From Nothopassalora personata (lineage: Eukaryota > Ascomycota > Dothideomycetes > Mycosphaerellales > Mycosphaerellaceae), in assembly GCA_033816765.1 (NCBI GenBank), contig CM066290.1:4092001-4156000 (forward strand): a stretch of DNA of 64,000 nt, given 5' to 3'. The position numbers and the translations under genes are program-made. Positions 6,695-60,682 of the stretch are shown here, one piece after another. Each line of letters starts with the position of its first letter. The stretch's first letter is position 1. The notes below the pieces were generated by a model, which was not told the DNA's origin, ran no database searches, and was given only the letters and a program-made list of their open reading frames with translations.

Positions 6695-9600
6695 ATGGCG
6701 ACTACCGAGACACCCGGTGGTACCGGTGCTTTGCCGCACGCTACTATCGTTCTTAAGAGTCATGACCAATGGGACAAGTTTAACCGTCAGTTAGAGCTCT
6801 ACGCTGAGTCTCTGAACATCTGGAAGTATGTGGATCCGAACGACACTATCGCCGAGCCAGTAGAGCCGGTGTTCTTGACGTTCGAACAGATCCAATCAGC
6901 ATACACTGCCAAAGGCGCTACGGCGGCAGACAAAGAGCTTATCAAGCTCCGTCAGTCGGACGCTGAGCGTAGGCAGCGGATGTATGACATCTTTGCCGCA
7001 GCAAGGTCCAAACTGGTCACCTACCTGATCCGTACTACTACGGAGCTAGGCCAAGAGCTTATGCATGGGAAACGCACTCTCAGAGGCAAGTACCAGGCTC
7101 TAAAGACACAGTATGGACCAGACGACATGCTACGTAAGCGACAACTCACACTAGAGCTGAACAGGCTTCAGAAGAGCCAAGCCCGAAGGATTGACGACTG
7201 GTGCTCAGACTGGCTGGTGTTGCAGACCAAGATGCTGGATTGCAACCACGCTGAGTACGGAGACCTAGCACGACACTTCTTGCTCGCAATACAGCAGAAG
7301 CAAGCTCCTACCTATGGAGCATCACTGTATAACGAGTGGAAGCGTGACAAGCTCTCTCTTAGCAAACTTACTGAGCGATACCTCGAATGGATACGCGATA
7401 CCACCCTAGTCACTAACAGCGGTCGATCAGTCTTTGCAACCTTCGCAGGCGAGCTATCAGCCGAACACGATCCTCCAGAAGTCCTACCGACCCCAGCACC
7501 TACAGCAGGCACAGGGGGTAGGAACAACAACAACACGCGTGGCCGCAGCCGCGGCGACAAGAGCCGTGACCGTGGCAACAAGGACAACAAGAGCAGTGAC
7601 AAGCCAAGCGGCTGCTGGAACATCACCGGCGAGCCTAAGGAGAGTTGTCACAAGAACCTCTATTTATGCGATGTAGTCAACCCTAAGAAGCGTCCATCAA
7701 AGGATCAGCGCTCTGAGCAGTGGAAGAAGTGCTGGAAGCACTTTATCAATTACTGCTTAGGCGATGATGGTGAACGCTTACTAGGCGTATTGAACCGCAA
7801 TGGGCGCACGGATGAGGAACGAGATGAGGCAATTGCCAAGGGCAAGGCCGCACCGCACGGCTTCACTGGTCTCACTGTCCTTTCGAGCTCGATAAGCCAA
7901 TTGAGCTTCAACTTCAGGGATTGCTGGGTATACGACAACTGCTCGGACACCCATGTCATCAATCACCATGACCAGCAGGGCGTAGAATTCATTGCAGAGC
8001 GCCTAACCACATCATCAATCCAAGCCGGAACCACGACATTCCCTATTGCCGCATTGGGCAAGGTTCGCATGAAGATAGAGGGGATACCATTCACCCTATT
8101 GGATGTGGCCTATTGCCCAGGCTTTCATGTGAACGTTATCTCCCACTCACGCATGGAGACGGCTGGACTTTGGTGGCACGGACGCACCAATTCAGTCTAT
8201 TACAATGACAAGAAATTAATGGACCTGCACCGCCCTACTGGCACAATCCCCTTCTTCAAGGTAGTCACACCGCCTCAGTCAGAGATGGTCTACAAATGGC
8301 CATCGAGCAATGATGGGAGCATCCTGCCAAAGATTACTGAGAAGCAGCGCACAGCGCACTTTATCAGCACAATTGGCAAGGGTGATACTATCCAAACACC
8401 GCCTGTTCAGGACTCCAACGGCGACCGTACCGTTATGGCAGTAATGAACAGCACAGGGGGCACCAAAGGTGCAGCAACGTCCAGCAGGACCCCCATTAAA
8501 CACCGCAAGCTCTCAGGCCGCCAGTGGCACCAAATCTTCGGCCATATTGGCGCTGAACGCATTAACCAGCTTCCGTTCAGAGCTAAGGGGGTGGTCATCA
8601 ACCCTGATGCACCCAAGGCACCCCTCACTGCACATTGCAGAGCATGTGGCCTGGCCAAGGCACACAAAGTGTTCAACAGGACCAAGCCAATCAGGGCAAT
8701 GACTCCCTATGGGCACGTGGCCATGGATTTGGCTGAGTTCACACCAGCATACAATGGTGATCGTTACCTGGTTCATTTCTACGATTTGGATACCCATGGG
8801 CACTTTCAATTCACCATCAAGAATAGGGACCAACCATCAGTATTGGCTTGCTTCAACAGCCTGCTCAGCTTCATCAATTTCATTGGGCGCAGGTTTGTTT
8901 GCTTCTACAGCGATAATGAAGCAGCCATTGGCACAGCCTTCCGCTCAACCATCAACAACAATCAAATTGAGTGGCACAACACTGCTGACTACGCGTCTAA
9001 CCAGGACCCAGCAGAACGAGCGGGCGGCGTCATCATCACGATGTCTCGCACAATCCGCATTCATGCTCGCCTGCCTGAAAAGCTCTGGAATGAATGCACA
9101 GCAGCTGCCGTCTACATTCTCTGGCGGTCACCAATCCAATCAAAAGGCTGGAAGACTCCCTTCGAATTGGCAACAGGCAGGGTACCAAATGTGGGCCACA
9201 TGGTAGTGTACGGCTGCCTAGCCTACGTGTACATTCATGGCACTACTCAACCAGGCAAGACTGAGAAGCTTAAAGAACGAGCACTCATCGGATACCTTGT
9301 GGGCTACGACTCTACCAACATCTACAGGGTGTGGGACCCATCGAAAGATAGGGTCATGCGGGTAAAGGACGTCCTCTTTGATGAGACCACGTTCTACGAC
9401 CCATCAATTCTCACTGCTGGTTACTCAACCCCTGTTGAGAACATCGCAATAGTAGAACCGGCTGAAGAGCCTGAACAGTACTACGACCTGTATGTGGCTC
9501 ACCATGAGCAGGACACAGCACAGGCCGAGGGGGTGGAAGAACAGGCTCAACAGCAGCCGCTCCATCAAAACCCTCGTCAACACGCCCATCAACAATTACT

Positions 9601-11932
9601 GCTTAGGCATGAACCACACTGGCCACAACACCGAGCGCCAGCAACATTCAACCAACCTGAAGGTGACAGCAGTTTCCAGCCACTTGATTGGCCATCAACA
9701 AATGACGCTATAACCCCTGCACTTTCACGAGACCAGGTCAAATCCGGGGTCGAACCAGCGACCAATGAGAGCACAGAGAACTCTGACTACAACAACAACG
9801 CGGTAAACAACAGTGACTCGTCTGAACAACAGTACATCAACACACTGCAACAGCAGTTGATGGATGCCCTCACAGAGGAAGATCGTGAGGAGCTCATAGC
9901 AGATGCTTCGACGACTTCAAATGTCGCTGCCGCTCCGCCTACAATCCCCTTCGAAGAACTCAGCCAAATGGATGACTTTTCCGCTGACACTAATTACGCC
10001 CTCACCGGATCCGGCAAGAGACTCAGAACGGCCTACTTCCACCATGCTCTGCACAATATCATGGTTGCTAACGTTATCATCAGCCAGATGGCGGGCATCC
10101 GCCAGAGACCTCGTTATCCAGGCCGTAAGTACCACGATGTCCTTCGATCCGAACGCACACGCGACTTCTCTCCTCCACGCCGTGTCAACACCATCACGTC
10201 GATGCACCGCGATGACCTTCCGCCCGAACCTCTGAACTACTGTGCCGCCATGAAGCACCGCTTCGCCCAACAATGGCGTGAAGCCATGGCCAAGGAGTTT
10301 GCTAAGGCAATCTCTACTGGCACATTCAAATGGGCAACTCAGCAAGAGAAGGATCATGATGCTCAGCAAGAAGAGGAGGGACTTCAGCCACCACTGCCGC
10401 TGAAGTGGGTGTACAAGTACAAGCTGGATGAGCATGGCATGCTAAAGAGCTTCAAGGCCCGGCTATGCGCAAGAGGCGATCTACAGGGCACACACTTGGA
10501 TACATACGCCGCCACACTGCCAGCAAGCATGTTCCGCCTCTGCTGTGCTATGGCCGCGAGCTTCGACCTAGAAGCTGAACAGTTTGATGTTGTGAATGCC
10601 TTTCTGAATTCGGACCTGCCGTACACCATGTACCTGCAACCACCTCCTGGAATCGACCGACCATCGGATGGATCTGGCCATGCTCTCAAACTGGTCAAGG
10701 CTCTCTACGGACTCAAGGAATCCCCTCTCCTTTGGTACAACTCCCTCACTGCAACGCTCTCCTCTTTGGGCCTGGTTCCCCTGTCAGACTCTGAGTGCAT
10801 CTATCATAACGACAAGGTCATGTTCTTCTTCTACGTGGACGACCTGGTCATGCTCTACCATCGCAAGAACAAGGCCCATGCGGCACACATCAAGCAACAG
10901 CTTCTTGACGCATACGAGATGCACGAGCTCGGAGATCTGACCTGGTTCTTAGGAATCAAGGTAACACGAGACCGGCAAAAGAGACTGCTGTGGCTCTCAC
11001 AAGAGGACTACATAGAGAAGCTCGCCGCCAAGTTTAGCATATCCACCAGCGCACGCAAGACCAATGTGCCAGTGGATCAACACCTCGACTGGACGGTGCC
11101 CGAGGGTCACGTCGCAGACGCTATAAAGATCCTTGCGTACCAACAACGTATTGGGTCTCTAAACTTCGCAGCAACGCACACACGCCCAGACATCGCCTTT
11201 TCCCTGTCTATGCTCTCGCAGTACCTAACCAAGCCAACGGACACACATCTAAAGCTTGCGGATCAGTGCTTGCGCTACCTCCTGGAGACCAAGAACCTCT
11301 GCCTTGTATATGGCGCCAGCAAGCACATTACTGGCCTACACAGTCAGCCTGAACATCTCGGCAAGAACCATGAATTCTTTGGCGCATCAGATGCCTCCTA
11401 CGGCATGAACGTCGACAGGACCAGCTCTAGCGGATGGATCTTTATGCTGTTCGGCGGACCAGTCGATTACAAAGCCTCCAAGCAGATCACTGTCACCAAG
11501 TCCTCAACCGAAGCCGAACTCCTTGGCCTGTCACAAGCGGCATCAGAGCTGATCCAGTGGGAACGCATCTTCGCCGAGATCCATCTCGAGTTCAACCAGT
11601 GCACACACCTGTACTGTGACAACACCCAGACCATTCGACTTGTCAACCAGCAAGGGCAAAAGCTTGACACCAAGCTGCGCCATGTTGACATCCATCACCA
11701 TTGGCTCCGCCAGAGAGACCAACGAGGAGATATCGAGATTCGGTATCTCAACACTAACGACATGCCTGCAGATGGGCTCACTAAGCTGCTGCCACCACAG
11801 AAGCACAAGCACTTCGTGAAGCTGCTTAACATAGCTGAGGAAGGCGTAGATCCACGCTCCTCAGCGCCCACTGCAGATGCCAACACTGGCCGCATCACCT
11901 CAGGAGGTGATGATAACGCTCAAGATGCGTAG
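6695..11932 (+). CDS. copia gag-pol polyprotein (1,745 aa), intact
   Basis: The frame stays open upstream to a TTG at 6578, but the first ATG is 6695 (MATTETPG), and the minus copy starts at the same place, so I use it. Approximate landmarks: Gag to residue 290; a basic Asn/Arg/Gly linker; a Cys cluster (C-x10-C-H) that is not a standard zinc knuckle; protease core DNCSDTHVIN at 414; pre-integrase H-x4-H and C-x2-C ending near 650; integrase acidic residues Asp678, Asp740 and Glu774 (ASNQDPAERAGG); reverse transcriptase with YVDD at 1380; RNase H with Asp1566 (GASDAS) and STEAELLGL. No stop or shift interrupts it. The product would form virus-like particles, copy the RNA and integrate the cDNA. 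Gag and Pol share one frame, so their ratio must be set by some means other than frameshifting. Confidence 0.95.
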   Translation: MATTETPGGTGALPHATIVLKSHDQWDKFNRQLELYAESLNIWKYVDPNDTIAEPVEPVFLTFEQIQSAYTAKGATAADKELIKLRQSDAERRQRMYDIFAAARSKLVTYLIRTTTELGQELMHGKRTLRGKYQALKTQYGPDDMLRKRQLTLELNRLQKSQARRIDDWCSDWLVLQTKMLDCNHAEYGDLARHFLLAIQQKQAPTYGASLYNEWKRDKLSLSKLTERYLEWIRDTTLVTNSGRSVFATFAGELSAEHDPPEVLPTPAPTAGTGGRNNNNTRGRSRGDKSRDRGNKDNKSSDKPSGCWNITGEPKESCHKNLYLCDVVNPKKRPSKDQRSEQWKKCWKHFINYCLGDDGERLLGVLNRNGRTDEERDEAIAKGKAAPHGFTGLTVLSSSISQLSFNFRDCWVYDNCSDTHVINHHDQQGVEFIAERLTTSSIQAGTTTFPIAALGKVRMKIEGIPFTLLDVAYCPGFHVNVISHSRMETAGLWWHGRTNSVYYNDKKLMDLHRPTGTIPFFKVVTPPQSEMVYKWPSSNDGSILPKITEKQRTAHFISTIGKGDTIQTPPVQDSNGDRTVMAVMNSTGGTKGAATSSRTPIKHRKLSGRQWHQIFGHIGAERINQLPFRAKGVVINPDAPKAPLTAHCRACGLAKAHKVFNRTKPIRAMTPYGHVAMDLAEFTPAYNGDRYLVHFYDLDTHGHFQFTIKNRDQPSVLACFNSLLSFINFIGRRFVCFYSDNEAAIGTAFRSTINNNQIEWHNTADYASNQDPAERAGGVIITMSRTIRIHARLPEKLWNECTAAAVYILWRSPIQSKGWKTPFELATGRVPNVGHMVVYGCLAYVYIHGTTQPGKTEKLKERALIGYLVGYDSTNIYRVWDPSKDRVMRVKDVLFDETTFYDPSILTAGYSTPVENIAIVEPAEEPEQYYDLYVAHHEQDTAQAEGVEEQAQQQPLHQNPRQHAHQQLLLRHEPHWPQHRAPATFNQPEGDSSFQPLDWPSTNDAITPALSRDQVKSGVEPATNESTENSDYNNNAVNNSDSSEQQYINTLQQQLMDALTEEDREELIADASTTSNVAAAPPTIPFEELSQMDDFSADTNYALTGSGKRLRTAYFHHALHNIMVANVIISQMAGIRQRPRYPGRKYHDVLRSERTRDFSPPRRVNTITSMHRDDLPPEPLNYCAAMKHRFAQQWREAMAKEFAKAISTGTFKWATQQEKDHDAQQEEEGLQPPLPLKWVYKYKLDEHGMLKSFKARLCARGDLQGTHLDTYAATLPASMFRLCCAMAASFDLEAEQFDVVNAFLNSDLPYTMYLQPPPGIDRPSDGSGHALKLVKALYGLKESPLLWYNSLTATLSSLGLVPLSDSECIYHNDKVMFFFYVDDLVMLYHRKNKAHAAHIKQQLLDAYEMHELGDLTWFLGIKVTRDRQKRLLWLSQEDYIEKLAAKFSISTSARKTNVPVDQHLDWTVPEGHVADAIKILAYQQRIGSLNFAATHTRPDIAFSLSMLSQYLTKPTDTHLKLADQCLRYLLETKNLCLVYGASKHITGLHSQPEHLGKNHEFFGASDASYGMNVDRTSSSGWIFMLFGGPVDYKASKQITVTKSSTEAELLGLSQAASELIQWERIFAEIHLEFNQCTHLYCDNTQTIRLVNQQGQKLDTKLRHVDIHHHWLRQRDQRGDIEIRYLNTNDMPADGLTKLLPPQKHKHFVKLLNIAEEGVDPRSSAPTADANTGRITSGGDDNAQDA

Positions 11933-13853: not shown

Positions 13854-13858
13854 TAGTA

Positions 13859-14177
13859 TGTTACGGATCGGTCTGGGGAAGCCCGTAGCCAACCAATCGA
13901 TGCCAGCAGACCAGCGGATGCACCCGATATGCAGAGTGCTCTCAGTGCTCTCGGGTGCTCTCTCGAGAGAGCAGAGAGAGCAGAGAGAGCAGGAAAGATC
14001 ACGCCAAGACACGGCACTATATAGACGACGCCCTTTTGCAAGTAGATAGGAGCCTCGTGCTCAACTCATTTTAAGTATACACCATATACTGTTTGGAACC
14101 ACTACCTTCATAACTGATTGAGACATCCCTGCAAAGATCCAAGCCCGAGTTGTGATAACGTACAGCGGTTCCTAACA
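13859..14177 (+). repeat. 5' LTR of the gag-only element
   Basis: This 319-bp LTR has a TATATA at 14018-14023 and GTGCTCAA at 14057-14064, where a transcript could begin. It includes a palindromic GAGAG/CTCTC-rich block near 13945-13990 (TCTCGAGAGAG), a plausible hairpin or regulatory site. Confidence 0.92.
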
Positions 14178-14180
14178 ACT

Positions 14181-14188
14181 TTGAGCAC
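14181..14188 (+). other. candidate self-priming primer binding site
   Basis: TTGAGCAC lies 3 bases after the LTR and is the exact reverse complement of GTGCTCAA at 14057-14064 in the LTR, about 39 bases after the TATA box. No TGG tRNA-type site is visible. The fission yeast element Tf1 primes by folding its own 5' end onto the primer site; this layout would fit that. The pairing is seen; its use is inferred. Confidence 0.45.
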
Positions 14189-14209
14189 CACCACCAGGGC
14201 ACTTTGCAT

Positions 14210-15202
14210 ATGTCTGGGAGAGACGCTACCCGGAGTCCGTCACGACAACAGCCACAGTCAACTGGCATCACGGAACGAATGAGCGAAATGTCGATTACAG
14301 GAAGCAGCAAGAACAACAACACTCCTATGGGTATGCTGAACCCATTGGACCACCACCGTGCACCTAAGGTGTCTACGCCGGAGACGTTCGACGGGACCAA
14401 GGACAAACTGGAGGCTTTTCAACTGCAGGTTCAGTTGTACCTTCACTTCAACGCACACCAGTTTCAAGGCGAGGCCTCTAAGGTCTTGTACGCCGCATCC
14501 TTCCTACGAGGAAAAGCAGCTAGAGGATTCCGACCATACCTCAAGGACTGGCTACACAACCAGGGCGAGGGAGAAACACCGAAAACGGAAACTCGAAAAA
14601 TTTTCCACGACTACGACGAGTTTGAGACGAAACTCGATGATCTATACGGGATACCAAATGAGGAGGTATACGCCGACCGACATATCCGACAACTTCGACA
14701 GACTACTTCTGTAGCGCTGTACGCCTCAGAATTCCAAGGATATGCCGCCGACCTGGAATGGAACGACGCAGCTTTGCGATCGCAGTTCTACCTCGGGCTG
14801 AAAGACAACGTCAAAGCCGAACTATCCCGAAACGCCAGCGTCGTTACGCTAGGGGCGATGATCAAGGCAGCAAAGGAGATCGACGAAAGGCTCCAGGAGT
14901 TGAGGTACGACCGACACGTACAGCCTGGATACCAGAGACCCGCCGCGGGCGGAAGAGGGGGCTTCAAGGCCAGAAGTCAGGACCCTAATGGTTACGGAGA
15001 CCCAATGGAATTGGACGTAACGGAACGTAGGACAGGAAGGGGGCTGAAGAGCAAAGGTTCCACCTGCTACGTATGTGGCGAGCAAGGCCACTTTGCAAGA
15101 AACTGCAAGAAGAAGAACATGGTTAGCCGCGAGTTCAACGCAATGATTCGCGAAGAGAATACATACCAGGAATGCGAGAACTTCTTCTCGAAATCTGCCT
15201 AG
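14210..15202 (+). CDS. retrotransposon Gag with CCHC zinc knuckle (330 aa)
   Basis: The frame is open from a TTG at 14204, but the first ATG is 14210 (MSGRDATRS). Residues 1-55 are Ser/Asn/Gln-rich. About 60-240 form a helical Gag capsid-type region: TPETFDGTKDKLEAF is the usual opening of fungal and plant gypsy Gags, and YADRHIRQLRQ and YLGLKDNVKAEL follow. A Gly/Arg-rich linker leads to a CCHC knuckle CYVCGEQGHFARNC at 286-299. The frame then ends with no protease or pol after it. It would package its own RNA into particles. The stop is followed by about 100 bases before the 3' end of the convergent antisense gene. Confidence 0.9.
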   Translation: MSGRDATRSPSRQQPQSTGITERMSEMSITGSSKNNNTPMGMLNPLDHHRAPKVSTPETFDGTKDKLEAFQLQVQLYLHFNAHQFQGEASKVLYAASFLRGKAARGFRPYLKDWLHNQGEGETPKTETRKIFHDYDEFETKLDDLYGIPNEEVYADRHIRQLRQTTSVALYASEFQGYAADLEWNDAALRSQFYLGLKDNVKAELSRNASVVTLGAMIKAAKEIDERLQELRYDRHVQPGYQRPAAGGRGGFKARSQDPNGYGDPMELDVTERRTGRGLKSKGSTCYVCGEQGHFARNCKKKNMVSREFNAMIREENTYQECENFFSKSA

Positions 15203-15308
15203 CAGAAACAACCTGAGGACAGCAAGGCATCAAACAGCGGCTTCTTGATTTGATGACCTAGGACACAGAAGTCAACACTACGACACGGAAAACAGATAAA
15301 GGACGAAC

Positions 15309-15869
15309 TTACGACGAGACCAACTCCGAGAAGGATTCAGGAAGGAGGAGATTCCCATCCAAGGACAAGCTAGGGTCGAAGACCGAAGGATCGGAGGCAG
15401 GAAACCACCAGTCTTCCGGGATGGAAGGCGGAGCGGCCTCGAGCTCCCCTTGTTCTAACACTTGGATGCTCGCCTCCTCGACAGCGATCGCCTCGCCCTC
15501 GCGCTTTTCGTGCAGCTCAAGCTGACGACGAAGACGCGCCTCCTTCGCATAGGCTGCCGCGATCTCTTCACTCTTGCGAACGAGATCATGACGGACCGCT
15601 TCAAGCTCACGGGTGAGCTTGTCCCGTACGGACTGAAGGGACTTCCACTCAGCAGGAGTGACTCGCACGTCACAACCCTTGATGTTGTGTTCGTTGCACT
15701 CCGAACAGCGGCCCGATTTGATGTGGACACGGCACACCTTTTTCTCACGAGTGCAGAAAGAGCACGACTTGACCATAGTAATCCCGTTCTCTCGAATGAA
15801 CTTGGCAAGCTTCTTGCGACGATGCGTACTGGTTTTGGTGACGGGAAGGGAAAGGGAAGAAGAAGACAT
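15309..15869 (-). CDS. antisense Zn2Cys6-like, coiled-coil protein inside the gag-only element (186 aa)
   Basis: This gene runs opposite to gag. The start is ATG at 15869, only 73 bases inside the 3' LTR, so an antisense promoter in or near that LTR would suffice. Residues 15-25 are basic (THRRKKLAK). Cys36, 39, 46, 55, 58 and 66 give C-x2-C-x6-C-x8-C-x2-C-x7-C, which fits the spacing of fungal Zn(II)2Cys6 DNA-binding clusters, with basic residues (TREKK) between the second and third Cys. Residues about 74-140 look like a charged coiled coil. The tail is acidic and aromatic (PEDWWFPASDPSVFD). DNA-binding domain, dimerisation helix and acidic tail together resemble a small transcription regulator. 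RNA or nucleocapsid binding is the main alternative. Confidence 0.75.
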   Translation of the reverse strand: MSSSSLSLPVTKTSTHRRKKLAKFIRENGITMVKSCSFCTREKKVCRVHIKSGRCSECNEHNIKGCDVRVTPAEWKSLQSVRDKLTRELEAVRHDLVRKSEEIAAAYAKEARLRRQLELHEKREGEAIAVEEASIQVLEQGELEAAPPSIPEDWWFPASDPSVFDPSLSLDGNLLLPESFSELVSS

Positions 15870-15942
15870 CGTTGGATGACAAAGTTGGAAAGGAATGACA
15901 TCTTGTAAGCTTCGGGACGAAGCTAGGCTAGAAGGGGGATGG

Positions 15943-16261
15943 TGTTACGGATCGGTCTGGGGAAGCCCGTAGCCAACCAATCGATGCCAGCAGACCAGCG
16001 GATGCACCCGATATGCAGAGTGCTCTCAGTGCTCTCGGGTGCTCTCTCGAGAGAGCAGAGAGAGCAGAGAGAGCAGGAAAGATCACGCCAAGACACGGCA
16101 CTATATAGACGACGCCCTTTTGCAAGTAGATAGGAGCCTCGTGCTCAACTCATTTTAAGTATACACCATATACTGTTTGGAACCACTACCTTCATAACTG
16201 ATTGAGACATCCCTGCAAAGATCCAAGCCCGAGTTGTGATAACGTACAGCGGTTCCTAACA
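15943..16261 (+). repeat. 3' LTR of the gag-only element
   Basis: This 319-bp repeat matches 13859-14177 by eye and is followed by TAGTA, the target duplication. Confidence 0.92.
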
Positions 16262-16266
16262 TAGTA

Positions 16267-16730
16267 CTCCTAAAAAGTTTATAAGTGTATAAACATATAA
16301 GGAATAGCGAGGACTAGTAGCTCCTTATATGTTTACGGTTAATAAGTAGCTCCGTAGAAGTTTACGGTTAACAACTTAAGTAGCTCTTTATATATTTACG
16401 GTTAATAACTTAAGTAGCTCCTTATATGTTTACGGTTAACAACTTAAGCAGCTCCTTATATGTTTACGGTTACTAACTTAAGTAGCTCCTTAGAAGTTTA
16501 CGGTTAAGTTCACGGTTAACAACTTAAGTAGCTCCTTATATGTTTACGGTTAATAACTTAAGTAGCTCCTTAGAAGTTTACGGTTAATAAGCAGCTCCTT
16601 AGAAGTTCACGGTTAATAAGCAGCTCCTTAGAAATCCACGATTAACAACCTAAGCTGCTCCTTAGAAGTTCACGATGCTATGAATATACTAGGAGTAGCT
16701 AATTTTAGCCAATTTTAGCGGCTCCTAGTA
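16267..16730. repeat. AT-rich tandem array, unit about 26-34 bp
   Basis: Ten or more units carry AGTAGCTCCTTATATGTTT followed by ACGGTTAATAACTTA, alternating with a variant having TTAGAAGTTTACGG. Units vary in length because the ACTTA spacer is sometimes missing. A short inverted piece (CTAGGAGTAGCTAATTTTAGCC..TTTTAGCGGCTCCTAG) closes the array near 16688-16722. No gene is present. Confidence 0.85.
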
Positions 16731-58078: not shown

Positions 58079-60682
58079 CTACGGCGTGCGAATCTCTTTG
58101 TCCCCGAGTACGGCCGCGCGCACCTGCATCACGGCAACAATTTCTAAGACGAATTCTTGTAATATCACCACATTGGTGAGGACATGATTCAGGCTGGCCG
58201 ACCTCTTTGATGCTGTGTCACGCTCTGCCGTGACCGTATGGGAGCTTTCTAAGCCTGGGAACTCGATGCTTTGCATCAGAACATCCGTGGTAGATGTTTC
58301 CGGCGGCGGAGGTCGAAAGATATCGCGTTGAGGTGGCGCAGTGCTCGTTTGCGCAAGCCGATCATCATGTGAAGGTGTCTGAGAGGCCGCCCTGGAATTT
58401 GCCGAGCTGAGAGCTTGCGGAGACATGGTGTTTGCCTTGTTACGACCTCGAATCTGCGAAGATTTGCTGGAACTACGCGTGTGTCCTCTAGATCCATGCG
58501 AAACATTCAGTCTGGAGGCTTGCTCTGATGGAGTCTCCGCTAAGCTTGCCAATTCACCGGATACGTCGAGACTTGCAGCTTGCAGCATCACCTTTCGGCC
58601 AGCGAGGAGCTGATTCCAATTTACAATATTGGTTCGCACGCCTTCGAGCTGAGATGCAAGAGCTTCGAGCTCTCTATAAAGCGTTGGTGCAGTGTCATTC
58701 GTCCACATCGGCCGACTGGTTGCCCTGCTCAAGCCATAGAGGCTGACACTTTCGTCGGGGTCCAGATAACGTTGCCAGGATCTTTGCGCCTGAGGAACAT
58801 CATCTGGAATACGACAGTCGCTTGCCGACAGGCCACACCAACCGTCCAGTCTAATCTCCACGCATTGGGCTATGGCGATGATTGCCTGGGTCAGAGCCAG
58901 ATTGACGTCGACGCTGTTTGTAAAGAAGGTCCTCAGCAAGCTTCTGATGGTTCGCATTAGTGGATCATCCTCGGTGAGACAATAAGTGCCTACTGCAGCA
59001 GACCAATTTTGCCCCGCAGAGTCAGATGTTGCGGCTTGATAAGGTACCTGGGCCTCAATGCTGTAGCGCAAGTCTTCGCATAAGCGAGTATACGTGGCTT
59101 CAGTGCCGTGGGCATGGTGCAAGGATAGCGCGATGGTAGAGTATTGGTCAAGCTCCTGGTCCAACGCTCCAAGTGACCTTACAGACTGACTGGGTCTGGA
59201 CTTTTGCACCTTGAGCAGAGTGCCAAATGCATATCGTTTCTGACGAGTAATGATGGCCGAACTTAGCCGCAACGCGGCGAATACGCTTTGGTCGTTACGA
59301 GATGCAATGTTGTTGAGTACAAGGTCAACCAGGCTGAAAAGGTTGGGATCGACAACATCATCGGCATCTCTCGGCGTGTTTAGAAGCATCAGACTCTGTC
59401 GTCGTCGGGCGGAGTTGGGTGCTCGAGGTAGTGTCGGCCTGACGGGCGTCTGTGGCGCCGAGGGGACAGCTTGCTGGTCGCTTTCCTGCACAGCTAAGAG
59501 ATAATTCATGATCATGTGAATTAGATCGGGATACTCCAGTGCCTCGAGTATGGTCGTCATATATGTCAGTACAGCGATTGAACTTCCAGCGTCTGTGTCG
59601 CTCGACTGTAGAAGTGACGGATACAGGAGTTGCTGCAGAAAAAGGATCTGAAAGTGGTCAAGCAGAGTCTGCTTCACATCAGCACTTCTGCAGTGATCCA
59701 GAACGTCCTGCCAGAAGGCGAGATACGAGAGAAAGGTTGCCATGTGAGTCTGATGCTTTTCCGAAAACGCGGACTCTGCTGTCGCTCGGGTATGCGTTGT
59801 CGTGTAGTCGCTCATAGCGAGTACAGAAGGCAGTGATGCATCTGGATGCAGAATACTGAGCTCACGGCTGAGTTGACTGTAGAGCGCGCCCAGCCCGGAC
59901 GCCATCAAGGTTGCAAGATCGCTTGCCACGACCCATTCTTCGAGATCGGGAGAACGACCTGTCGCTTCGAAGACGTACAGCAGACCAGTCCTGGCGAAAT
60001 CGCCGATACGTCCTTCGTGGTGAACCCGCTCGATCATGAGGTAGCAGAGAGGAAAATCGTCCTTTTGCGTTATGCCAACAAATGTCTTTTTCTCCTTGAT
60101 GAACACATCTTCGAGCGCCGCCTTCACTGTGGATTGGAACCAGACTGGCAAGATCTCTGGTTGTAGGCGTATCTTGGCAGCTATAGTGAAGAGCAGCTCG
60201 AGAATCGTCGTTTCTGTGTCCGTATCAACTAACACATTGCCCGATTCCAGCACTTTCCGCACGAGTTTCATGAGACTCTTTGCAAAGTGTTCGCTTGCGA
60301 GAAAGTCCTCCTCTTCGCTATCGACCAGCGCAGCAAAGACGGCGAGTGCCGAGCGAATGACTGGCTCATACTGGCTCACGATGGCTGCTCTTGCGATTGC
60401 TCCGTATATCTTGTTGGCAGACGCGAAGTGCAAACATGAGTGCGGCACCGGGGATCGTGTTTCATCTTGGAGGAGACTGGCAAGTCGCTCGATGTGGATG
60501 TGGAGGTTGTGCAGCAAAGGGCCTTCACTGCCCAAATCTCGCGGACGTTCACATAGCTCGAGAATGGTCTTGTAGACACGTCTGAAGCGTCCCAGTCGCG
60601 CGGAGGGATCGTTGGAGGCCGCTTTGGTCGCAGAGGGTTTTGGCGTGTACGCTGAGCCGATCAGACGCGCCCAGAAGTCCAT
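58079..60682 (-). CDS. FHIP family protein (FTS-Hook-interacting, RAI16-like), 867 aa
   Basis: I use ATG 60682 (MDFWARLIG); the GTG one codon upstream is not a likely start. The N-terminal 500 residues are helical repeats with family hallmarks: LHNLHIHIERLASLLQDE, DEEDFLASEHFAKSLMKL-like blocks, FPLCYLMIERVHHEGRIGDF, ARTGLLYVFEATGRS and DLATLMASGLGALYSQLSREL. A Ser/Gly/Arg-rich linker lies near 740-800, and the C-terminus ends in a helical segment (NHVLTNVVILQEFVLEIVAV). In Aspergillus and animals FHIP proteins form a complex with Hook and FTS that links dynein to early endosomes. Single exon, normal length. I expect a cytoplasmic role in endosome transport. Confidence 0.85.
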   Translation of the reverse strand: MDFWARLIGSAYTPKPSATKAASNDPSARLGRFRRVYKTILELCERPRDLGSEGPLLHNLHIHIERLASLLQDETRSPVPHSCLHFASANKIYGAIARAAIVSQYEPVIRSALAVFAALVDSEEEDFLASEHFAKSLMKLVRKVLESGNVLVDTDTETTILELLFTIAAKIRLQPEILPVWFQSTVKAALEDVFIKEKKTFVGITQKDDFPLCYLMIERVHHEGRIGDFARTGLLYVFEATGRSPDLEEWVVASDLATLMASGLGALYSQLSRELSILHPDASLPSVLAMSDYTTTHTRATAESAFSEKHQTHMATFLSYLAFWQDVLDHCRSADVKQTLLDHFQILFLQQLLYPSLLQSSDTDAGSSIAVLTYMTTILEALEYPDLIHMIMNYLLAVQESDQQAVPSAPQTPVRPTLPRAPNSARRRQSLMLLNTPRDADDVVDPNLFSLVDLVLNNIASRNDQSVFAALRLSSAIITRQKRYAFGTLLKVQKSRPSQSVRSLGALDQELDQYSTIALSLHHAHGTEATYTRLCEDLRYSIEAQVPYQAATSDSAGQNWSAAVGTYCLTEDDPLMRTIRSLLRTFFTNSVDVNLALTQAIIAIAQCVEIRLDGWCGLSASDCRIPDDVPQAQRSWQRYLDPDESVSLYGLSRATSRPMWTNDTAPTLYRELEALASQLEGVRTNIVNWNQLLAGRKVMLQAASLDVSGELASLAETPSEQASRLNVSHGSRGHTRSSSKSSQIRGRNKANTMSPQALSSANSRAASQTPSHDDRLAQTSTAPPQRDIFRPPPPETSTTDVLMQSIEFPGLESSHTVTAERDTASKRSASLNHVLTNVVILQEFVLEIVAVMQVRAAVLGDKEIRTP

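Follow-up and report, generated by a model that had tools for sequence, protein, structure and literature searches.

What use would a retroelement with no enzymes of its own have for a presumed regulatory gene on its opposite strand? This question is raised by a long terminal repeat (LTR) element found at positions 13859-16261 of a stretch of 64,000 nucleotides from Nothopassalora personata (contig CM066290.1, positions 4,092,001 to 4,156,000), which as a whole we will call the window. The element has 2,403 bp and contains two LTRs, a gag gene and an antisense gene, here named aP, at 15309..15869 of the minus strand. The original prediction, made from the letters alone, had described identical LTRs, a TAGTA target duplication, an intact Gag, the absence of pol and an antisense open reading frame (ORF) of 186 aa with the spacing C-x2-C-x6-C-x8-C-x2-C-x7-C; all of these features are confirmed. 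We have searched the genome of this fungus (54.5 Mb) and found that Gag and the R (repeat) and U5 (unique 5') parts of the LTR are nearly constant, with aP and the U3 (unique 3') part changing together; that one Gag goes with many different antisense proteins could not be seen from the letters of the window. We have also found that aP is a real gene under codon-level constraint.

Constant gag, variable antisense gene and promoter

The Gag of the window is present in many copies in the genome. Among 1,049 candidates we have scored the best 121, which have 98-100% identity; all except one have no stop codon. In 96 of them the coordinates place an antisense aP 110-292 bp 3' of gag, and these aPs belong to eight families. 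We fetched 20 of the remaining 25 loci: 18 have intact antisense ORFs of further families, one is truncated (L052) and in L049 there is none in place. The last five have three intact and two truncated antisense aPs. In total an antisense aP is found downstream in 120 of the 121 scored copies, and it may be any of 13 families: w186, G, J, K, M, N, O, P, s166, s63, s61, s41b and s27. The other 12 families have 19-36% identity with the aP of the window. At locus L049 the site is rearranged, and the aP-like stretch that it holds has decayed and runs in the sense orientation. The ORF is conserved, antisense and adjoins the 3' LTR, a layout of the type described for the brtn gene of Boty elements. 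At least 17 divergent presumed antisense regulators are present in the genome, 13 of them on the near-invariant Gag and four on a chromovirus chassis. Six s166-type Gag copies are found in a row in G000:C12:1356314-1367583, with a spacing of 2,056 bp: they form a tandem array, apparently with shared LTRs.

The DNA of gag is 95.7-99.8% identical in all 28 pairs of eight families. The part of the LTR that begins at the TATA box and includes R and U5, which corresponds to 14018..14177 (+) in the window, has 92-99% identity with the window in 12 of 13 other modules; the 5' LTR of s41b has 62%. The U3 upstream of the TATA box has 51-76% identity with that of the window, each compared U3 including a short common stretch before the TATA box; shuffled sequences give 48%, with a maximum of 58%. 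The sister modules K and K2 are a clear case: both Gag proteins are 100% identical to that of the window, and their U3s are 68% identical to each other. With Gag, R and U5 nearly constant and both aP and U3 variable, aP and U3, which adjoin each other at the 3' end of the RNA genome, appear to be exchanged as one block. We infer that gag has been made uniform by recombination. In locus L065 an s41b and an s27 element stand in tandem; the shared middle LTR starts like the first one and ends like the last one, a visible recombinant.

The antisense gene and its protein

The search for aP in the genome gave 781 candidates, of which the best 150 were scored. Among these there are 32 near-identical copies, one of them covering residues 12-186 only. 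The frame is kept without a stop in 27 of the 32, so the ORF is not due to chance; the original prediction was to be abandoned if other copies broke the frame. The other 118 matches have 34-46% identity, many of them intact and many with several stops. In many aP-like copies of the genome several TAG/TAA codons interrupt the frame, as repeat-induced point mutation would give, and for this reason the association of aP with these elements is probably old. Beyond this genome there are at least 12 distinct relatives of aP: a single-sequence query found eight and an alignment query, over at most 7,997 candidates, at least nine, with five in common. Elasticomyces elasticus is among their hosts.

Selection was estimated as dN/dS, the ratio of nonsynonymous to synonymous substitution rates, in all 14 pairs with at least 45% identity among 18 aP representatives; copies inside the family of the window itself are too similar for this purpose. 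The aP genes of K (L043) and K2 (L046) have 60 base differences, 49 of them at codon position 3, which give a dN/dS of 0.051 with a dS of 0.42. Five rougher pairs, with 54-65% identity, have values of 0.12-0.23 with dS 1.4-2.5. The representatives were picked as open ORFs, and their open aP frame is so by construction. The other frames provide a control: only one of the five is open, and in one family only. The sense frame also has a low value for K and K2 (0.076, a mirror effect), yet it contains stops in 18 of 18 representatives. A dN/dS near 1 was another result that would have spoken against the prediction; with 0.05 in the closest sisters, and with the wrong frames as a control, at least some antisense regulators are under strong purifying selection.

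The cysteines of the window aP are found at residues 36, 39, 46, 55, 58 and 66 (spacing 2-6-8-2-7), in a cluster encoded at 15672..15764 (-). In an alignment of 26 aPs all six are fully conserved or nearly so (at least 90% of the sequences); some are missing from P0001, P0007 and P0008. The cluster is followed by a long helical region, in the window residues 72-145 (15435..15656, -), which form a single helix in the structure model and presumably a coiled coil. Most members then have, as judged by eye, an acidic stretch that includes a Trp/Phe motif close to the end; in the window this tail has residues 146-186 (15312..15434, -) and a low model confidence. The tail LSPxTWSALxGxPxxFW recurs in many members.

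Fungal Zn2Cys6 domains (PF00172) have the spacing C-x2-C-x6-C-x5..12-C-x2-C-x6..8-C. The window aP agrees with it; families J, K, N, O and P have a second spacer of 13, beyond this rule. An AlphaFold2 model of the window aP, built from 13 sequences, has a mean pLDDT of 81.9, with about 90 at residues 21-60 and about 85 at 61-80. The cysteine region is modelled as two halves, each with a CxxC pair followed by a short helix. Foldseek gives six PDB matches with E 0.7-5: DNA-binding domains of Pho7 occupy ranks 1 and 2, and the CBF3 kinetochore complex, which includes a Zn2Cys6 subunit, is at rank 3. In a second structural look Zn2Cys6 domains account for six of 13 rows (HAP1 three times, Pho7, Leu3 and PPR1); Leu3 is superposed over 35 residues at 2.0 A. 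The picture is clearer for the divergent aP of family s166 (L042), modelled from six sequences: Leu3 (three times), Pho7 and CBF3 occupy ranks 1-5 of 11 in Foldseek, and 13 of 15 rows of the second look are Zn2Cys6 domains. This aP also matches a host protein over 80 residues with E 3.6e-4 (search of one genome), and this host protein has a Pfam Zn_clus score of 37.3 bits (cut-off 21). The prediction would also have failed with a cluster folded as a knuckle or not at all; the models instead suggest for the cysteine cluster the fold of the DNA-binding Zn2Cys6 domains of fungi, on structural matches which are few and have weak scores, with Zn2Cys6 domains topmost.

Element structure, U3 repeats and autonomous partners

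The two LTRs of the window element (13859..14177 and 15943..16261, +) have 319 bp without any difference between them and end in TG...CA. They are flanked by the 5-bp duplication TAGTA at 13854..13858 and 16262..16266. Gag has 330 aa (14210..15202, +), with a Retrotrans_gag domain (42.5 bits, Pfam cut-off 24.1) and a CCHC knuckle (zf-CCHC 27.6 bits, cut-off 20.8); the ORF list of the element contains no pol between the LTRs. The presumed self-priming primer-binding site TTGAGCAC (14181..14188, +) is complementary to GTGCTCAA (14058..14065, +), about 40 bp past the TATA box and presumably close to the RNA 5' end. A polypurine tract is recognised by its sequence at 15929..15942 (+). The element has therefore all the features of a non-autonomous Gag element: LTRs, target duplication, primer site, polypurine tract and gag, with no pol. 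A total of 30 full-length copies are listed in the genome; the best eight all have identical LTR pairs and 5-bp flanking duplications, which shows that the family has moved recently.

In the vicinity, positions 6695-11932 (+) contain an open polyprotein of 1,745 aa, Ty1/copia-like by eye. Next to the insertion, at 16310-16680, lie AT-rich repeats with a degenerate unit of about 34 bp (AAGTAGCTCCTTATATGTTTACGGTTAA...), some of which are also present on the left side. A conserved host gene at 58079-60682 has 83% identity with Fulvia fulva and 80% with Dothistroma septosporum, which places the host close to these fungi, in Mycosphaerellaceae.

The U3 of the window contains an array of GAGAGCA/TGCTCTC repeats at 13936..13992 (+), with its equivalent in the 3' LTR at 16020-16076. 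GAGAGCA is found six times in 120 bp, as compared with 0.027 per 150 bp in positions 20001-64000 of the window. Seven-base words exceed dinucleotide shuffles (p <= 0.005) in the U3 of 14 of 18 modules, in A and M partly due to internal duplication; the same test on four R-U5 controls gave no excess in any of them. Other U3s are rich in TGATC, GATCTG, GGTCGA or CGAGCAG. A CCAAT box is found on the sense strand of ten of the 18 U3s.

Each of the 18 modules has, 15-21 nt upstream of the 3' LTR, an inverted repeat whose stem has 5 bp or more; its chance is about 0.02 per module, for a position fixed after seeing the repeats. In the window it is AGCTTCG[GGA]CGAAGCT at 15908..15924 (+), 18 nt 5' of the 3' LTR. 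The stems have about ten different sequences, still paired, and the loop is G-rich, often GGA or GGGAC. Folding z-scores are unremarkable. The repeat might act as an operator or, in the RNA, as an element close to the polypurine tract.

Four elements have their own enzymes. L066, L067, L068 and L039 have, according to Pfam, protease, reverse transcriptase, RNase H, integrase and a C-terminal chromodomain, and are chromoviruses of the Ty3/gypsy type. In L039 pol is split over two overlapping frames, so this copy is probably broken. L066 and L067 (autonomous-type B and H) repeat the pattern of the Gag-only elements: a stretch of 5,641 bp, which runs from close to a TATA-like box to the end of pol, has 98.3% identity, and beyond pol their aPs have 37% identity and their U3s are different. 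L039 and L068 are further chromoviruses, each with its own aP. In the aP tree the autonomous-type elements are found in both strongly supported superfamilies.

Autonomous-type and Gag-only elements have in common the LTR start TGTTACGG and the 5-bp duplications. The tract before the 3' LTR is GGGGGATGG in the Gag-only elements, L039, L066 and L067; in L068 it is GGAGGGAGATGG. These common features make the autonomous enzymes plausible helpers. The Gags of the autonomous type have 41-43% identity with that of the window. In their priming region TTGAACGC faces GCGTTCAA, with two compensating changes with respect to the Gag-only set.

Possible function and comparison with known systems

We consider it slightly more probable than its opposite that aP is a self-encoded DNA-binding regulator tied to its own promoter and traded with it as one block by template switching, in a Gag-only element with a chromovirus helper. 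We infer that aP is transcribed in antisense and that its protein is nuclear, binds DNA and acts on the U3 of its own element, and likewise the switching route and the helper. The young Gag-only element would borrow enzymes from an autonomous chromovirus. Its antisense transcript would begin in or beside the 3' LTR and give a small nuclear regulator able to bind DNA by its Zn2Cys6-like cluster and to dimerise by its coiled coil, with an acidic-aromatic tail at the end. This regulator would bind the repeated motifs of its own U3 and set the transcription of gag RNA; the tail makes activation likelier than repression. The common Gag would package different RNAs together, and first-strand transfer through the shared R, with a template switch in the shared gag, would swap aP plus U3. 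If they are swapped as one block, each regulator stays with its own promoter.

Several results weigh against this reading. Four aP pairs with 45-48% identity have dN/dS of 0.20-0.47 and four further pairs have no finite dS. Six of the 13 U3s are closer to that of the window than any shuffled sequence, so the U3s are not all unrelated. The U3s of J, s166, N and P have no significant repeat excess (0.07-0.27), and host factors could bind the arrays. The correlation of aP similarity with U3 word similarity is weak (r 0.22-0.33, p 0.002-0.010) and is lost without the K2 sister (p 0.06-0.14); H and s27 have unlike aPs and motifs in common. In the second structural look on the window aP the other seven of 13 rows are ribosomal helices with higher Z, and every Foldseek E-value, for the window aP as well as for s166, is at least 0.7; weak scores are expected for a domain of only 35 residues. 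Pfam Zn_clus gives the window aP 10.4 bits and s41a 11.4, below the cut-off of 21, and no match at E <= 0.5 in the other nine of 11 aPs scanned. The layout of a Gal4-type regulator proposed at the outset is partly supported: it stands as to cysteine spacing, is suggested by the modelled fold and fails at the Pfam score; in view of that score and of the weak structural ones we say Zn2Cys6-like and do not count aP as a member.

The same predicted DNA-binding protein linked to U3 might instead be a repressor or exclusion factor acting on its own and like U3s, which would limit copy number and let modules coexist like heteroimmune phages. The presence of 13 modules together on one Gag is what exclusion between like modules would favour. 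We find this unlikely: the recurring acidic-aromatic tail, by eye, looks more like an activation segment, and at the scored Gag loci two modules have each reached 26 copies. An action after transcription, by binding of the element RNA or cDNA for packaging, nuclear import or choice of integration site, would suit a small Cys-rich protein in a life cycle which already has a partner chromodomain and the CCHC knuckle of Gag as nucleic-acid or chromatin proteins. It seems quite improbable to us, since it leaves unexplained both the joint change of aP and U3, with gag, R and U5 constant, and the Zn2Cys6-like predicted fold.

The weak match of the s166 aP to a host Zn2Cys6 protein would agree with a captured host transcription factor which acts mainly on host genes, its linkage to U3 being mere neighbourhood. 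This is very unlikely: aP lies within a retroelement at the 120 Gag-linked copies and in L039 and L066-L068, whose surroundings were inspected, and 13 divergent families on one Gag suit the fitness of the element better than that of the host. If only the antisense RNA mattered (double-stranded RNA, silencing or transcriptional interference), with an incidental frame, the antisense orientation in 120 of 121 copies would be accounted for, and control by antisense RNA has been proposed for plant elements (PMC7264820). The dN/dS of 0.05 in the aP frame and the stops in 18 of 18 mirror frames largely refute this idea, which we find hardly credible. The preferred reading is still that of a regulator traded with its own promoter.

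Several features have precedents in other LTR elements. In Tf1 and related self-primed elements the primer-binding site pairs with a stretch presumed to be the 5' end of their own RNA. Our elements resemble these sushi-type chromoviruses in the self-complementary primer site and in the chromodomain of the autonomous-type partners, and differ by Gag-only relatives and antisense regulators. TR-GAG elements of plants have LTRs and Gag without pol, the same Gag-only layout; the descriptions that we draw on make no mention of an antisense regulator. The HBZ protein of the infectious retrovirus HTLV (human T-lymphotropic virus) is a leucine zipper protein produced in antisense from the 3' LTR which acts on LTR transcription. 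The likeness is an antisense gene at the 3' LTR whose product acts on the LTR; HBZ has no zinc cluster and no homology is implied. In HTLV the antisense promoter is found within the 3' LTR (PMC7264820).

Boty elements of Botrytis carry an antisense gene, brtn (PMC8365987, PMC4227169, PMC7264820). Boty is a fungal gypsy element with a chromodomain (PMC4227169), in which brtn is an extra gene between pol and the 3' LTR (PMC7264820), and a Monilinia transcript resembles BRTN (PMC5987419). Compared by gene layout alone, it is similar to our elements in having an antisense gene before the 3' LTR of a chromodomain gypsy element; the passages on Boty in these sources report no Gag-only elements, zinc cluster or module exchange. 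No Botrytis protein is listed in our homology searches with aP, which were limited by shared words. Antisense genes adjoining the 3' LTR are also found in the plant elements Grande and RIRE2 (PMC7264820). In plant Retand elements an antisense protein, TRP28, is predicted to bind DNA and a regulatory role was proposed in 2025; some of these elements are non-autonomous and about half have family-specific tandem repeats near the antisense gene (PMC11963269). These features recall our elements. The differences are a plant host, an element which is not a chromovirus, another protein domain (the word "zinc" is nowhere in PMC11963269) and repeats which lie before the LTR, not in U3; the passages of that source which we use describe no pattern of constant Gag and variable regulator. 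The original prediction knew of no such combination, which needs qualification: antisense genes as such have precedents in brtn and TRP28. In searches of the open-access literature (subscription papers, including Zhao 2011, lie outside it) we found no zinc-cluster antisense protein, no Gag-only fungal element carrying one and no joint exchange of a regulator with its U3.

According to the account in PMC7264820, antisense genes have long been reported from LTR elements, with no function assigned to them. The pattern found here reduces this question to a matrix of regulators against U3s, in which each pair can be tested for recognition. Should every regulator prefer the U3 of its own module, then mobile elements would be carriers and traders of private pairs of transcription factor and promoter, which would be a source of new host regulators and a means for parasites of parasites to stay apart. 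We may tentatively go further, with a little less than even confidence: a shared chassis (R-U5-gag or R-U5-gag-pol) would carry antisense-regulator/promoter cassettes tradeable by template switching, each one a regulatory or immunity group, so that elements with one Gag can coexist. Such cassette trading would be the retroelement counterpart of the swaps of repressor plus operator in heteroimmune lambdoid phages.

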